NCBI GenBank assembly: GCA_021816625.1
Contig: JAKAXM010000002.1
Span: forward strand, 1,270-65,269
Direction of reading: 5' to 3'
DNA length: 64,000 nucleotides
DNA from: Pseudomonadota bacterium
Lineage (GTDB): Bacteria > Pseudomonadota > Gammaproteobacteria > Acidiferrobacterales > Acidiferrobacteraceae
Shown: positions 27,790 through 37,746 of the stretch, in pieces
How the letters are laid out: each line of letters starts with the position of its first letter
Position numbering within the stretch: the stretch's first letter is position 1
Position numbers and translations under genes: made by a program
The notes under the pieces: model-generated
Seen by the model: only the letters and a program-made list of their open reading frames with translations
What the model was told of the DNA's origin: nothing
Database searches by the model: none

Positions 27790-29591
<1,802 letters not shown>

Positions 29592-29609: not shown

Positions 29610-30380
29610 TTAGCCGTAACGGCCTGTAATGTAGTCTTCCGTCTGTTTCGACGCCGGGTTCGTAAAAATAGCGTTCGTGTTATCGAACTCTACGATACGA
29701 CCCAGGTACATAAAGGCAGTATAGTCAGAAACTCGAGCCGCTTGCTGCATATTATGGGTGACGATGACGATCGTATAATTTTGTTTCAACTCATAGATGA
29801 GCTCCTCGATCTTCAAAGTCGAGATCGGGTCCAGCGCTGACGCCGGCTCATCGAGAAGCAGAACCTCAGGCTTTAGGGCTACCGCGCGCGCCATGCACAG
29901 ACGTTGCTGCTGGCCACCCGATAGACTCATGCCGCTCTGTCCGAGTTTGGCGCTGACCTCGTCCCAAAGAGCCACTTGACGCAAAGCCTCTTCGACACGG
30001 TCATCGAGCTCGGCCTTTGGCACGCGTTCGTAAAGCCGTATCCCGAAGGCTACGTTCTCATAGATAGACATGGGGAATGGCGTAGGCTTTTGGAACACCA
30101 TGCCGATGCGCGAGCGTAGCCGGTAAAGATCCTCGCCGGGCAATAAGACGTTGCGGTCATCCAGCCATATCTCCCCCGTCGCCCGCTGGTCGGGGTAAAG
30201 CTCGTACATGCGGTTGAAGGTGCGCAACAACGTCGACTTCCCGCATCCCGAAGGCCCAATGAAGGCGGTGACCATGTTGGTGGCAATAGCAAGATTGATG
30301 TCGTGAAGGGCGGCTTCCTTCCCGTAATAGAAGTGCAGGTTGCGAACCGTGATCTTTATGCTGTTCTGCGCGGATTCCAT
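29610..30380 (-). CDS. pstB: Phosphate ABC transporter ATP-binding protein PstB
   Basis: PstB powers high-affinity phosphate uptake. Walker A is GPSGCGKST, the signature is [14 protein letters not shown], Walker B is [12 protein letters not shown], and the switch histidine lies in [13 protein letters not shown]. At 256 aa it is full length. The membrane partners PstC/PstA and the binding protein PstS are not adjacent; the gene upstream is a porin. Interaction with a Pst permease encoded elsewhere is inferred. Confidence 0.94.
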
Positions 30381-30563
30381 TATCAGAGACCTTGCCTACT
30401 CCTCGAGGACGGGGCGAACTCCGATAAGCGGAGGGCCGGGCGGCATTATGCCACAGCTGCCCGCTAGAAGAGATTCGGGCGGTCCCGGCGACCAGGATGG
30501 TTAGGCGCCAGACACCGCCCTAAAGGCCGAGGCCACAAGGCCCCGACCGCGGACCCTCCCTCC
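30381..30563. other. Intergenic segment porin-pstB
   Basis: About 180 bases between the porin stop and pstB on the same strand. It holds only imperfect hairpins (for example GGCC-ACAA-GGCC near 30530) and no Pho-box-like TGTCA repeats. pstB may rely on read-through from the porin promoter or on an unrecognised promoter here. Confidence 0.3.
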
Positions 30564-31820
30564 CTAAAAATCGTACTCGAGCATGAGCCGGTTATAGACG
30601 AACCGGTGCAGAACCGGCAGATTGTGAGCCACGCCCACGCGATCGCGGATGGACAAACCCTTGGCCGCACCGCCCAGGAAGTAGGTCAGATCCAGATCGG
30701 TCTCGTTCGTACGCGCTGACCCGTATGTGCCGGTCAAGGTATTGAAGTAATCGGCATAGCTTGCGATAAAGCGCAGCTTATGACTCAGGAAAAAGGCGGT
30801 TGCCGACACCTTGAAAGCATGCCCAGTCGTCTTGCGGTCGATCATCCCTTGGATCATAGACGTCGTATATAACGGATCTGTGGCATAGCCGGTCGTATAG
30901 GGAGACACGACATCGCCGTTACCGAAGGCCCCGGGATGAGCCGGAAGGTCGTTGTAGCCTATGGTCAGACGGTCATTGGCGTGCTTTACGCCGACCATGG
31001 CCCCATAGACGGTCGAATCCACCGTGCCCAGGTATTGGGCCCCGGACCCCGTCTCGCGCATGAACTGCGCGCCCACGAAGGGCTTGAAGCCGGAGCCCCC
31101 GGGCAGCGTATAGGACGCCTGCCCATAGCCCATTTTGGCCAGATCGTAAAACTCATAACCCCAGGCCGCGGCCTTGAGGCCTGCGCCCTTGTAATCGGCG
31201 CCCAGTGCGCCCGCGCCTGGCTCGGTCCGGTTTGGAAGACCGCCTGTGCCGCCGATATTGCGCGGATTATAGAGATCGCTTTGCGAAAACTCGTCGGCGG
31301 TCCGGCCCTTGAACGCTGTAATGCGCAGGGCGGAGATCGTAAGGCCCTTGATTGGTTTGACCGCGGCCAGCACGCCCTGATAGGTCGCCGGAATCAGACG
31401 CGAATCCGAGGGATTGATCCAGGGTGTTGACACCAGCTGGTCGCCGGCCCGCACCAGGACATGCCGGTTGTGATACTGGACGAACGCCTGGCCTAGGGTG
31501 TTTATGCCCTCGAAACCAGCCAAGGTGCCATCGACAAGCGCCGGATTCGAGTTATTCAGGCCGAGCGAGTGGGCCGTATAGAAACTGAGGCCGACGGAGA
31601 AACCGTAGAACGAACCCGTCAAGACATTGAGGGCGCCTCCGAGCGCGAAGGCCTGCTGGCCGGCCACGGGGCCGCTATAGTGCCGCGTAAAATCATACGC
31701 GCGCACATCGCCATTGACCGTCGTTCCTGCCCAAAAGCCCTGGCCCGCCACGGCCTGGCCGATACCCCCACAAACCACTACAAGGCCGCTCAGCACCGCG
31801 GCGCGACACGTTCTCTTCAT
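30564..31820 (-). CDS. Outer membrane porin, likely phosphate-starvation inducible
   Basis: A 418-residue protein with a signal peptide (MKRTCRAAVLSG, hydrophobic core, QAVA) and a pattern of alternating beta strands ending in an aromatic residue (LMLEYDF), as expected for an outer membrane barrel. It resembles OprD-like porins of acidophiles; substrate residues were not recognised. ATG 31820 has a GGGGGGA Shine-Dalgarno. A strong Pho box lies about 100 bases upstream and pstB-phoU lie downstream, so a role in uptake of phosphate or phosphorus compounds under starvation is likely, in the manner of OprP/OprO or PhoE but not shown to be homologous. Confidence 0.8.
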   Translation of the reverse strand: MKRTCRAAVLSGLVVVCGGIGQAVAGQGFWAGTTVNGDVRAYDFTRHYSGPVAGQQAFALGGALNVLTGSFYGFSVGLSFYTAHSLGLNNSNPALVDGTLAGFEGINTLGQAFVQYHNRHVLVRAGDQLVSTPWINPSDSRLIPATYQGVLAAVKPIKGLTISALRITAFKGRTADEFSQSDLYNPRNIGGTGGLPNRTEPGAGALGADYKGAGLKAAAWGYEFYDLAKMGYGQASYTLPGGSGFKPFVGAQFMRETGSGAQYLGTVDSTVYGAMVGVKHANDRLTIGYNDLPAHPGAFGNGDVVSPYTTGYATDPLYTTSMIQGMIDRKTTGHAFKVSATAFFLSHKLRFIASYADYFNTLTGTYGSARTNETDLDLTYFLGGAAKGLSIRDRVGVAHNLPVLHRFVYNRLMLEYDF

Positions 31821-31916
31821 GACCATCCCCCCTTTGTGTATCAAAACCATGGCGGGGGCCCAGGCCGAATCGGACACGGGGAGGCCCCACCGTTGCTTGC
31901 ATGCTAGGGTCCATAT

Positions 31917-31934
31917 GTGACATTTACATGACAT
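31917..31934 (-). promoter_or_regulatory. Pho box upstream of the porin
   Basis: On the minus strand the sequence ATGTCATGTAAATGTCAC has two 7-base half-sites (ATGTCAT and ATGTCAC) separated by 4 bases, close to the PhoB consensus CTGTCAT-N4-CTGTCAT. Ten bases further, TAGCAT fits a -10 element, which is the usual geometry of PhoB-activated promoters lacking a -35. phoB and phoR are in the same window. Confidence 0.78.
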
Positions 31935-32711: not shown

Positions 32712-32799
32712 TGACCTGCCCGGCCTCAAACGACGTGGATTAAGCTTGAGGTCGGGAAAACCACCATCAACTCAGAGCCACAATTGAGGGGGCAGGTCA
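32712..32799 (+). repeat. Inverted repeat flanking the IS110 5' leader
   Basis: TGACCTGCCC at 32712-32721 and GGGCAGGTCA at 32790-32799 are perfect 10-base inverted repeats enclosing the segment just before the recombinase start codon. They may be part of the element's left end or form a leader hairpin that hides the start codon. Confidence 0.55.
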
Positions 32800-33905
32800 T
32801 GACGAAGTTTAGCAAGTACGTGGGGCTGGATACACATAAAGACACGATCACGGTGGCCGACGCCGGTCAGGGCAAGCCTCGCTATTAAGGGGAGATCGCC
32901 AATACCCCGGAGGCGGTGGCCAAGCTCGTGAAGAAGTTGAGCCCGGCAGGTGAAGTGCTGTCGTTCTGCTACGAGGCCGGTCCCTGCGGCTACGGCATCC
33001 ACCGGCAGTTGACCCATCTGGGTCACGACTGCGTGGTCGTCGCCCCCTCGCTCATCCCCGTAAAGCCCGGGGATCGAGTGAAGACCGATCGCCGGGATAG
33101 CGAATCGCTCGCTCGCTTGCATCGCGCCGGCGAGCTCACGGCGGTCTGGGTCCCAGGCCCCGAGCAAGAGGCGGTGCGCGACCTCACCCGCGCCCGGGAA
33201 GGCACCAAGGCCCTCGAGCGGCAGGCCAAGCAGCGCCTATCGGCCTGTCTCCTGCGTCATGGTCGCCTCTATACCGCGGGCAAGACGAAGTGGGCCAAGG
33301 CCCATGGTGAGTGGCTCATGACCCTCAAGTTCGAGGCCCCGGTCCAACAGAACGTCTTCCAGGAGTACGTCGATACCGTGGCCCATCTCACCGGCCGGGT
33401 GGCGGCCCTGGAGGAGGAGATGGTGCGCGTCCTCGATCATTTCTCGTTGGCTCCGGTGGTGCGCGCCTTGATGGCGCTGCGCGGCATACAGCTCGTGACG
33501 GCCCTCACCGTGGTCGCCGAGATCGGGGATCTCACGCGCTTTGATTCCCCTCGGCAGCTTATGAGCTATCTGGGGCTCGTGCCCTCCGAATCCTCCAGTG
33601 GCGCCACCACCCGCCGCGGCGGCATCACCAAGACCGGCAATGGGCACGTCCGGCGGGTGCTCACCGAGGCCGCCTGGTACTACCGCTTCCCGGCCCGCAA
33701 AACCGCCCACTTACAGCGAAGGGCCGAGAACACCAGCGATCCCGTGCAGACGATCGCCTGGAAGGCCCAGAAGCGGCTCTGCGGCCGCTACCAGCACCTG
33801 CTGCGGGCCGGCAAGATCAAGGTGCAGGTGTGCACGGCCATCGCCCGTGAGCTCACGGGCTTCCTGTGGGCCGTGGCCTGCGCGGTCCAGACGGAGGTTC
33901 AGTAA
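32799..33905 (+). pseudogene. IS110-family transposase (DEDD recombinase), broken by an in-frame stop
   Basis: The reading frame starts MTKFSKYVGLDTHKDT, the RuvC-like N-terminus of IS110 recombinases, and ends in a clear Transposase_20 domain (ALRGIQLVTALTVVAEIG, then LMSYLGLVPSE and GHVRRVLTEAAW). At 32886-32888 the frame has TAA where relatives usually have a second tyrosine codon (RYYGEI-type), consistent with a single-base change. Downstream the frame is intact to 33905. A shortened product from GTG 32916 would lack the first catalytic aspartate, so the copy is probably inactive unless helped in trans. About 369 codons in total. Confidence 0.85.
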
Positions 33906-34245: not shown

Positions 34246-35001
34246 TCAGGGGAAAGTGTAGATGACGTTCAAGGTCGTAAAAGTCGATGTAGGCTTGAAT
34301 CCGATGGGCGCGCTCGTGTAATGATCGACGACCTCCGAAACCTTGAGCGCGAGCTTTCCCGTTATGGGTGTCGTGAGGTCTGTGCTAGACGAGATCAGCG
34401 TTCCCGTACGTGCGCCGAGCACAGCGACGCGCTGACCGAGGATCGTTTTGGCGCTTAGGCGATAGCGGTAATCCCCACCAAGACGCAGGACCGGAACATC
34501 ATCATGCCCGCCGGTCCGGAAATAATTCTGACGGAAGCCTAGGCCGGCGTCGACCTTGAGACGCATGTCGCCATGGCGCAGAAAACGATGACCAATCCCC
34601 ACGGATTCCACTTGATAATGGCGGTAGCCATCGAAAGGATTGCGATCGTAGCGCACGGTCCCGAGTAGAAAGTTCTCTTTTTCGCCACTGAAATAATGCT
34701 CCGCATCCACGTTGATATCTAAGCGGTTTGCGCTCACGAGGCCGCTGCTCGCGGTATAGTCGTAACTGAGTCGCCCGGCATAACGCCATAGACCCGCGCC
34801 GTAGCGGACACGATCATGGGTATCGAGGGTACGGGTGCTACTGGTGCCGGTGGTGGCTTCATAACCAAGGCCCGTCTGGGCACTAAAGCTGTGGCGTGGA
34901 GCAGCCAAGCCCTTGGCTGCCTGCACGGCAACCGGCATCAAAAGGGCGCATGCAAGGCCCGTACGGAAAGCGGTGAACCCGGGTCGGCGGGGCCCTAGCA
35001 T
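34246..35001 (-). CDS. DUF481-type outer membrane beta-barrel protein
   Basis: A 251-residue protein with a signal peptide (basic MLGPRRPGF.., hydrophobic core, VQAA) and the alternating strand pattern of the DUF481/YdiY salt-induced outer membrane family: SAQTGLGYEATTGTSSTR, RLDINVDAEHYFSGEKEN, then a C-terminal YTFP. Function is unknown. ATG 35001 is chosen; a GTG at 35013 is in frame with no better ribosome site. It stands alone between the IS110 element and the MscS-like gene. Confidence 0.78.
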   Translation of the reverse strand: MLGPRRPGFTAFRTGLACALLMPVAVQAAKGLAAPRHSFSAQTGLGYEATTGTSSTRTLDTHDRVRYGAGLWRYAGRLSYDYTASSGLVSANRLDINVDAEHYFSGEKENFLLGTVRYDRNPFDGYRHYQVESVGIGHRFLRHGDMRLKVDAGLGFRQNYFRTGGHDDVPVLRLGGDYRYRLSAKTILGQRVAVLGARTGTLISSSTDLTTPITGKLALKVSEVVDHYTSAPIGFKPTSTFTTLNVIYTFP

Positions 35002-35065
35002 ACGCAATTGCACAACCCCGCTGACATGAGGGCTGGGGCGGAAGAACAGGGGGGCGGCAGCAGCG

Positions 35066-35689
35066 TCATTCCTGGCGCTCCGAACGGCCGGTCAGCGGGC
35101 CGTCTTCCTCTTCGCTGGCCACGAGCGCCGCGCGCAGTTGCGCAGACAGCAGGACAGTCGACTTAACGGGCAAGGGGATGCGGCGTACGTACTTCTGAAA
35201 AAATAGGTTGTTGGGAATGAGGACGGTCGTACCCTGCGACTCCTCGACCTCGGTATACATAAGGTTGCTATCGAGCACCTTGCCCTTGACGCCATCCGGG
35301 AGGATCTCGATGTGCTGGCCGAGCTGATAGGGGCGCCATATGACCATGAAGAGGGTCGCTGTGATATTGCTCAATATGGTCCACACCGCCACCATTCCGA
35401 CCCCGAGGACGGCCAGAAAACCCGCAAAGGTATCGAGTACACCGGTAACCTCGAAGCCGGCCATGCGCAGTGTGACCAGCACAAGCAGGATGTAGAGGAG
35501 TACCGTCGCAAAGCGGCCCACCGCATGGAGAGCGCCGGCAGAGAAGGCGCGATTGCGTTGGAGAAGAACGAGTCCGCGATACAACCCCCGCTTCAGGTAG
35601 TGCAGGACAAAGAGTCCGCCCGCAAAGACCAGAACCGGTTTCCAGAGATTGACGAGGACCGCGTGGTACGACACCGAACCATCAAACAT
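35066..35689 (-). CDS. MscS-family small mechanosensitive channel
   Basis: A 207-residue protein with three hydrophobic helices in the first ~110 residues, the last being a Gly/Ala-rich pore-like helix (AGFLAVLGVGMVAVWTILSN). A beta domain follows (RPYQLGQHIEI, then GKVLDSNLMYTEV and VLIPNNLFF) typical of the MscS middle domain. The C-terminal domain is short. It begins 7 bases after the phoR stop and is probably co-transcribed with phoBR. It likely relieves osmotic pressure; a regulatory link to phosphate is not shown. Confidence 0.85.
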   Translation of the reverse strand: MFDGSVSYHAVLVNLWKPVLVFAGGLFVLHYLKRGLYRGLVLLQRNRAFSAGALHAVGRFATVLLYILLVLVTLRMAGFEVTGVLDTFAGFLAVLGVGMVAVWTILSNITATLFMVIWRPYQLGQHIEILPDGVKGKVLDSNLMYTEVEESQGTTVLIPNNLFFQKYVRRIPLPVKSTVLLSAQLRAALVASEEEDGPLTGRSERQE

Positions 35690-35696
35690 GGGCCCA

Positions 35697-37019
35697 TTAT
35701 ACAGGCGGAGGCGGAGGCAGCGAGCCGGGGGCGCCCGGCGTAAGTCGGCTTGACGGAAAGATACAGGTAAAGGTACTGCCCTTGCCGACCACGCTTTCGA
35801 TGGCAAGGCGCGCATCATGGCGCAGCAAGACCTGGCTTACGATGGAAAGACCGAGGCCGGTCCCCCCGGAGGCCCGCGAACGGGCTCCGTCGACACGGTA
35901 AAAGCGCTCCGTAAGAAACGGGATGTGGCGCTCGGGAATACCTTCACCGGTATCGGCGACCGCAAAGCGGCCACCCGCACTATCGGTGGTCCACGAGATG
36001 CGAATACGCCCTCCGGGGGGCGTATGACGTACGGCGTTCTGCACGAGATTCGTAAAGGCGCCGCGCAGCTCCTCAGTATTGCCGATCAAGGCGACATCGC
36101 CCACCTCGACCTCGATGTGATGGCCCCCGTCCGGACCGAGGGCCTTCGCGATATTGCAGAGCCCCGCCACCATGGTTTGCATCACCACGATCTCGTCCCG
36201 GGTGCGGGCCGGGGTCGTTTCCAACCGAGACAGGGCCAACAGGTCTTCGACGAGGCGACGCATGCGGTCGACTTGCTCACGCATAAGGACGAGACTTGCG
36301 CGCAGATCTGGATCGCCGTCGGCAAATACGTCCTGAAAGCTTTCGAGGAAACCGTGCAGCACGGTGAGCGGGGTGCGCAACTCGTGGGATACATCGGCAA
36401 CGAAGTGGCGGCGCATGTCTTCGAGCTTTTTCACATGCGATATGTCGCGGGCAATGACGAGCTTCTCGCTCGCACCAAACGGGATGATCTGAACGGCGAC
36501 CGTCAAGGGCTCGACCGATGGCCTAAAGATCAGCGGGTCCCGGTAGTCCCCCCCCTCCAGGTAGGTGGCAAATGTGGGGTCTCGCACCAGATGGACCAGC
36601 CGTGTCCCGACGTCACGGGCGGCGTGCAGGCCGAGCATGCGCTCGGCGGGCGGGTTGGCCCAATCGATCACATCGCCCTGCGACAACACGACCATAGCGT
36701 CAGGCATGGCACTGGCCGCAGCCTGCAAGCGATCGAACTGGCCGCTTAGATGCTTCTCGTGGCGATCGCTGTCGCGATCGCGCCTATGCACCTCGCGCAC
36801 GACCTCATCCCAGAGGCCGCCGAGCTCCGGAAATGGCCCCGTGCGGCCGCGGCGCAGCCAGCGATAGAGCTGATTGAGCTTGTGGAACTGGAAAAAGAGC
36901 GCGGAAACGACGCCCACGGCCATACCGGCCCACGGAAAACCGAAGGCCGCGCCCAACACTGCCCCCAGGAGCATGAGCCACAAGGCGCCCCACAACTCGC
37001 GGCGCAACTCTGGATGCAA
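35697..37019 (-). CDS. phoR: Phosphate sensor histidine kinase PhoR
   Basis: PhoR phosphorylates PhoB when phosphate is low and dephosphorylates it when PstB/PhoU signal plenty. It has two N-terminal membrane helices (residues 9-45), a PAS domain (around 105-200), a HisKA box with FVADVSHELRTPLT (phospho-histidine), and an ATPase domain with NLVQNAVRHTPPGG, DTGEGIPERHI and GGTGLGLSIV. A Pro-rich end is unusual. The start appears to be TTG 37019, 2 bases after phoB, suggesting translational coupling. Length of 440 aa is normal. Confidence 0.95.
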   Translation of the reverse strand: MHPELRRELWGALWLMLLGAVLGAAFGFPWAGMAVGVVSALFFQFHKLNQLYRWLRRGRTGPFPELGGLWDEVVREVHRRDRDSDRHEKHLSGQFDRLQAAASAMPDAMVVLSQGDVIDWANPPAERMLGLHAARDVGTRLVHLVRDPTFATYLEGGDYRDPLIFRPSVEPLTVAVQIIPFGASEKLVIARDISHVKKLEDMRRHFVADVSHELRTPLTVLHGFLESFQDVFADGDPDLRASLVLMREQVDRMRRLVEDLLALSRLETTPARTRDEIVVMQTMVAGLCNIAKALGPDGGHHIEVEVGDVALIGNTEELRGAFTNLVQNAVRHTPPGGRIRISWTTDSAGGRFAVADTGEGIPERHIPFLTERFYRVDGARSRASGGTGLGLSIVSQVLLRHDARLAIESVVGKGSTFTCIFPSSRLTPGAPGSLPPPPPV

Positions 37020-37021
37020 GT

Positions 37022-37711
37022 CTAGCTGTCCCCCGAAAAGCGGTAGCCCACGCCCCTGACAGTCTGAACATAGCGATCATAACCGCTGGGGGCCAAGGCC
37101 TTACGCAAACGACGAATATGCACGTCGACGGTGCGCTCGTCTATATAGGTGTTGCTCCCCCAGACGGCATCGAGAACCCGGGCGCGGCTGTGGACGCGCT
37201 CGGGATGGGTCATAAAAAAATGCAGCAAACGAAACTCGGTCGGCCCCAAGATCAGACGCTCGTCATCGGCGAGGACCTTATGGGTCCCTGGATCCAGCAG
37301 CAGACCGCCTACGGCGGCGATATCATCGGAGGCCATGGGCGCCACACGCCGCAGCACCGCCCGGACGCGGGCTATGAGCTCGCGGGGCGAAAACGGCTTG
37401 GTCATGAAGTCGTCGGCCCCCGTATTGAGGCCCCGGACCTTGTCTTCCTCGTCCACCCGCGCGGTCAACATGATAATGGGGATATTCTGGGTCAGCCGCT
37501 CACGCCGCAGCCGGCGGGCATAATCGACACCATCCATACCCGGAAGCATCCAGTCGAGCAGTATGAGATCGGGCAGATCGGCCAGCACCAGGGCGTGCGC
37601 CTCCCGCGTATCCTGGGCCTCAAGGCAGCTGAAATCCGCCTGCTTTAAGGCGAACCGGACCATGGCGCGGATCGCCGGCTCATCGTCGACAACAAGGATC
37701 TTTCCAGGCAT
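37022..37711 (-). CDS. phoB: Phosphate regulon response regulator PhoB
   Basis: PhoB activates genes with Pho boxes in low phosphate. The receiver domain has the DDE acid pocket at its start and phospho-acceptor D53 in LLDWMLPG. The C-terminal winged helix ends in [13 protein letters not shown] and [12 protein letters not shown], typical of the OmpR/PhoB class. ATG 37711 has an AGGGGGA Shine-Dalgarno; an upstream in-frame start at 37732 is less likely. A probable Pho box lies 36 bases upstream, implying autoregulation. Confidence 0.95.
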
Positions 37712-37746
37712 GATGTTCCCCCTGCCGCCCATTCAACACAAACAGT

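Follow-up and report, generated by a model that had tools for sequence, protein, structure and literature searches.

A predicted PhoB-activated OprD/Occ-family porin next to pstB-phoU, a possible outer-membrane partner of the Pst transporter

Introduction

Is the outer-membrane porin encoded beside pstB and phoU in this bacterium controlled by phosphate, and if so, what does it carry? An earlier note on this DNA had pointed to a Pho box upstream of an outer-membrane barrel gene and had predicted a phosphate-starvation porin. We followed this up across the window (the whole stretch of 64,000 nucleotides analyzed here), the rest of the genome, and related genomes. Our best explanation of the whole, to which we give a probability of roughly 0.78, is that PhoB activates the gene, that its product serves the Pst transporter as a partner in the outer membrane, and that the pstB-phoU pair behind it has its own promoter.

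The Pho box and its neighborhood

The box lies on the minus strand, from 31934 to 31917, and is followed after a 10-nt spacer (31916-31907) by TAGCAT at 31906-31901, so the earlier note was right about both the Pho box and a -10 element ten bases on. This layout, a 7-4-7 box and then a -10 some 10 nt later, is what would be expected of a PhoB-activated gene. The ATG of the porin gene, at 31820, is approximately 97 nt beyond the box. The gene context described in the note is also there, with an OprD barrel downstream of the box and then pstB and phoU on the same strand, while phoBR, placed about 4 kb away, is upstream, with the 3' end of phoR 3.8 kb from the box. The features of this part of the locus are as follows.

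31917..31934, minus strand: Pho box (7-4-7), ATGTCAT-GTAA-ATGTCAC, at the aligned place in 12/12 orthologues with upstream DNA
31901..31906, minus strand: -10 element TAGCAT, with TAnnAT at exactly the same spacing in 12/12 orthologues
30564..31820, minus strand: OprD/Occ-family porin, 418 amino acids with signal peptide, predicted 18-strand barrel (PF03573, 3.2e-20)
35697..37019, minus strand: phoR (TIGR02966, 379 bits, cut-off 334)
37022..37732, minus strand: phoB (TIGR02154, 340 bits, cut-off 296); the start is probably a later ATG near 37711

PstB, PhoU, PhoR, and PhoB all score above the curated equivalog cut-offs. Between phoR and the porin gene are a gene for a DUF481 outer-membrane protein (34246-35013) and an MscS-like gene (35066-35818) on the minus strand, and both are also found there in most relatives with long flanks. 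The stretch from the porin promoter to the DUF481 gene also contains a copy of an IS110-family transposase gene (32799-33905, plus strand), whose codon 30 is an in-frame TAA.

Conservation of the Pho box

Motif searches give a mixed answer. A consensus search allowing up to three mismatches finds 2 matches in the 64-kb window, against 2.46 expected. The search with a PhoB matrix that the earlier note had suggested, here built from 12 pstS boxes, ranks the porin site first in the window, but equal or better scores occur 28 times in 60 random windows. Because neither counts nor scores in 64 kb go beyond chance, the motif alone is weak evidence. Against this, the mismatch-free pattern TGTCATN5TGTCAY occurs twice in the 2.19-Mb genome, at the porin site and at one more, and when the 300 nt before the porin gene were shuffled 1,000 times, the score of the box was never reached.

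The porin was then used as query against 60 related genomes, 14 of which (own genome included) belong to the genus. A close orthologue is present in 13 of these 14, and the genome lacking one is 77% complete. Conservation was counted in the 12 of 13 orthologous loci that include upstream DNA. In all 12, the 7-4-7 box stands at the corresponding position and is separated from TAnnAT by 10 nt, and in 11 of them at least 10 of the 12 conserved box positions match at the canonical gap, while at eight other half-site gaps, used as a control, only 0 to 3 of the 12 orthologues reach this level. When the 300-nt region of each locus was shuffled, the observed score was reached in 0 to 11 of 1,000 shuffles for eleven loci; the box of the remaining orthologue (L035) scores only 9 of 12 and is matched by 52/1,000. 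In contrast, the box is absent from all six close paralogues (60 to 68% identical, one with two in-frame stops), whose best box scores are reached by 141 to 912 of 1,000 shuffles. The box is therefore conserved with the gene, as expected of a Pho regulon member (12/12 orthologues, 0/6 paralogues). The neighborhood is conserved as well: pstB and phoU follow the porin gene in 13/13 genus loci, and phoBR is upstream in all six loci long enough to show it.

It could still be argued that the porin Pho box is a chance match, given that the window does not have more copies of the motif than random sequence would. However, conservation speaks strongly against this, with a box in every one of the 12 orthologues, its fixed spacing, and the gap and paralogue controls, and we regard a chance match as very improbable. 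At the level of sequence, it is conservation and not the motif count that decides in favor of a real Pho box. The PhoB control of the porin proposed earlier thus gains comparative support from the conserved box, -10, and spacing, and we predict with high confidence that PhoB controls this gene.

Other Pho box candidates in the genome

37747..37764, minus strand: degenerate Pho box CTGACACAAAAGCGTCAT upstream of phoB, 10 nt before TTGAAT, a predicted autoregulation site

The box upstream of phoB matches at 9 of 12 positions and is identical in 7/7 sequences, though its flanks are conserved too; across these seven it stands 10 nt before TTGAAT or TTAAAT. The pstSCA genes are on another contig, behind a Pho box of their own with the same 10-nt spacing as at the porin, and PstS scores above the TIGR00975 cut-off. 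A Pho box precedes pstS in 13/14 genus loci, and at the fourteenth the DNA extends no more than about 350 nt ahead of pstC and so does not reach the pstS promoter.

Further sites were found elsewhere. The second mismatch-free core (L001 1501-1517, C4:64478 of the own genome) is about 74 nt before exbB-exbD, and phosphate control of this TonB energizing system is possible. Of two cores with one mismatch, the first (L010 1501-1517) is followed after about 108 nt by the gene for a TonB-dependent receptor and the second (L007 1501-1517) after 74 nt by one for an MFS (PF00083) transporter, which makes these two genes candidates for further regulon members. Because box-like sites precede all three, the regulon may be broad. 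Weak matches to PF07396, the OprP family, occur in 11/14 genus genomes, including two barrels at or just above the cut-off in the own genome, and no comparable Pho box is found directly upstream of these two.

Family and predicted structure of the porin

The porin matches PF03573 with 73 bits against a Pfam cut-off of 25, which places it in the OprD family. A Pfam search with E up to 0.1 returned OprD alone, with no PF07396 and no general-porin family, and the NCBIfam model for Opr family porins (NF033922) gave 23.8 bits, under its cut-off of 100. Among proteins with solved structures, those closest to it in sequence are Occ channels. An AlphaFold2 model built from 24 homologues has 18 strands, a mean pLDDT of 72.4, and a pTM of 0.74. 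The nearest structures to this model are also Occ channels, with Z of 28 to 33 (for 3jty, Z 33.2 over 360 residues, rmsd 2.8), so that the predicted fold is the 18-stranded Occ fold. The porin had been described as not obviously homologous to PhoE or OprP. It does belong to neither family, judging from the OprD-only Pfam result and the 18 strands, but it has known relatives in the OprD/Occ family.

In OccD1, Arg389, Arg391, and Arg410 belong to the central basic ladder of Occ channels, according to the available part of one study (PMC3260308). The porin has R392, R394, and R411, with about the spacing of the ladder as given there. Across 24 aligned homologues these are conserved in 23, 23, and 24 sequences, respectively, made up of 13/13 Pho-linked orthologues (class A rows), 5/5 paralogues (class B rows), and 5, 5, and 6 of the 6 remaining rows. 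They align with basic residues of some Occ chains, and their correspondence to the individual ladder arginines of OccD1 is tentative. The three arginines suggest an anion channel. However, they do not set phosphate apart, because the non-Pho paralogues have them equally. Net charge does not distinguish the two groups, with pI values of 7.3 to 9.5 in Pho-linked orthologues versus 7.4 to 9.7 in other paralogues, and it was dropped as an argument for phosphate.

A probable separate promoter for pstB-phoU

29610..30380, minus strand: pstB (TIGR00972, 385 bits, cut-off 343)
28860..29591, minus strand: phoU (TIGR02135, 241 bits, cut-off 130)
30445..30458, minus strand: AGCTGTGGCATAAT, predicted extended -10 promoter of pstB-phoU, invariant in 13/13 porin-pstB gaps

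The 14-bp element AGCTGTGGCATAAT is the single long invariant block in orthologous porin-pstB gaps that are otherwise divergent, and the genome has one exact copy. It reads as an extended -10, TGTGn-CATAAT, and there is no Pho box beside it in the gap. The pair probably has its own conserved promoter without a Pho box, and so pstB-phoU need not depend on the Pho box of the porin. We infer that AGCTGTGGCATAAT is the basal promoter of pstB-phoU. This makes physiological sense, since PhoU and PstB are required for keeping PhoR quiet in high phosphate.

Alternatively, porin, pstB, and phoU could form a single Pho-driven operon, in which case the 14-bp element is not a promoter. The genes share a strand across a gap of 183 nt, and no strong terminator separates them. 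GC-rich hairpins after the porin gene were considered as a terminator and rejected: over 13 loci their mean z is -0.74 versus shuffles, and a clear T-run is seen in only a few of the 13. With hairpins no more stable than shuffles and T-runs rare, we do not claim a terminator, and read-through from the porin gene into pstB-phoU is possible. However, a single operon leaves the invariance of AGCTGTGGCATAAT in 13/13 divergent gaps, and its fit to an extended -10, unaccounted for, and we consider it rather unlikely.

The wider family and its neighbors

Homologues are found at E 1e-20 in 16/369 genomes of an even class sample (two from the same genus) and at E 1e-40 in 4/397 genomes of a phylum sample, all from the same class. 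Among 27 homologue loci from outside the genus or distant from it in other ways, 8 have a Pho box with shuffle p of at most 0.0125, and 7 of these 8 have no pst gene in their flanks; because the search loci cover at most 1.5 kb of flank, partners farther away are missed. One of the eight, in a genome from another gammaproteobacterial family (G094), has the order Pho box, porin, pstS, pstC, pstA, with PstS, PstC, and PstA all above cut-offs.

Paralogues without a box have other neighbors. Seven (L044, L051, L052, L053, L055, L119, L123) adjoin ModE and/or a WtpA/ModA-like binding protein, and three (L049, L050, L056) adjoin a sulfonate/taurine/nitrate-type ABC system, although the WtpA-like, Ssu/Tau/Nrt-like, and ModE matches are all under NCBIfam cut-offs, the Mop domain excepted. 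At L069 (5025-8210), a paralogous porin gene is flanked on one side by the gene of a ModE-like regulator and on the other by that of a WtpA-like binding protein, making it a candidate tungstate/molybdate porin. One complete relative (L056) has a further paralogue copy that is interrupted by two in-frame TGA codons and seems to be a duplicate in decay.

Neighbor associations were counted over 39 porins, with L033, L056, L057, L116, L117, L120, and L122 left out. A Pst neighbor accompanies 13/20 porins with a box and 0/19 without, whereas another oxyanion-type ABC neighbor accompanies 0/20 with a box and 10/19 without (in one of these ten, L108, just an unspecific ABC ATPase). The tree has four independent changes of box state, and with so few switches significance is out of reach for a pair test (median p 0.5 and 1). 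The pattern suggests that this OprD subgroup pairs with oxyanion importers. It is tempting to go further and propose that the subgroup swaps its regulator with its cargo (a Pho box where the partner is Pst, ModE where it is a tungstate/molybdate-type binding protein, and no Pho box where it is a sulfonate/nitrate-type importer), so that Occ would include dedicated oxyanion pores. This is a tentative idea, which we hold at somewhat under even odds.

A proposed mechanism and the question of cargo

We propose the following mechanism. When phosphate is scarce, phosphorylated PhoB would bind the tandem repeat at 31917-31934, in place of a -35 element, and bring RNA polymerase to the -10 that follows ten bases later. 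With the OprD/Occ-type barrel then made, phosphate or small phosphate-bearing anions could cross the outer membrane to PstS, itself supplied from the distant pstSCA operon, which has a Pho box of its own. The pstB and phoU genes would be transcribed from their separate, probably constitutive, extended -10 promoter, so that the parts that restrain PhoR would be present when phosphate is plentiful. Under starvation, read-through from the porin gene may add further pstB-phoU transcript.

The cargo is where confidence drops. Nothing in the sequence proves phosphate selectivity, and known Occ channels carry carboxylates. PhoB could control a porin for organic phosphates, phosphonates, or carboxylates, as in Occ channels, which are described as preferring carboxylates in the available part of one study (PMC3260308); the box-like sites before exbB-exbD and the TonB-receptor and MFS genes point to a possibly broad regulon. 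However, the genetic partners are Pst genes in 13/13 genus loci and in G094, and no phosphatase or phosphonate gene was recognized beside the porin among the open reading frames read. Cargo other than phosphate is therefore unlikely in our view, and phosphate is the probable main cargo.

If phosphate is indeed the cargo, a porin for phosphate starvation has also arisen from the Occ family, alongside the PhoE and OprP types. The paralogues, with their phosphate, tungstate/molybdate, and sulfonate/nitrate partners, would then be a natural series for finding the lumen residues that set oxyanion selectivity. The pst system of the genus is split, with pstSCA apart from pstB-phoU and the porin beside pstB-phoU, whereas in G094 a porin from the same subgroup leads pstSCA.

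Comparison with known porins

The predicted role resembles that of OprP and OprO of Pseudomonas, PhoB-induced porins for phosphate entry across the outer membrane. However, these belong to PF07396, which the present porin does not match, and OprP is a 16-strand trimer, whereas the porin model has 18 strands. PhoE of enteric bacteria is under Pho-box control and has a role in starvation; the present porin is predicted to share both, but it differs in strand number and has no match to a general-porin Pfam family.

With the OprD/Occ porins of Pseudomonas and Acinetobacter (OpdK/OccK1, OpdG/OccK9, OpdC/OccD2, VanP/OccAB2, and the BenF-like porin), it has PF03573, the 18 strands of the model, and the predicted fold in common, at 14 to 22% identity in structural alignments. 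The known members are carboxylate channels, whereas the present porin is predicted to be under PhoB and is linked to pst genes. For the Occ porin gene opdH, a study of PhoB and TctD gives a TctD motif only, in the part available (PMC4513871). In Acidithiobacillus ferrooxidans, an OprD-like gene has as its neighbor the gene of a ModA-like binding protein, and the authors suggested molybdenum or iron efflux, according to the available part of that report (PMC2631029); this pairing of an OprD-type protein with an oxyanion binding protein is like the non-Pho paralogues here. Where the paper on the A. ferrooxidans genome deals with phosphate, it mentions no porin in the part available (PMC2621215), and among the titles and abstract openings returned by a literature search there was no description of a PhoB-controlled OprD-family porin. 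Our best reading is that the Pho regulon has here taken in an OprD/Occ porin, from a family different from that of the phosphate channels known so far.
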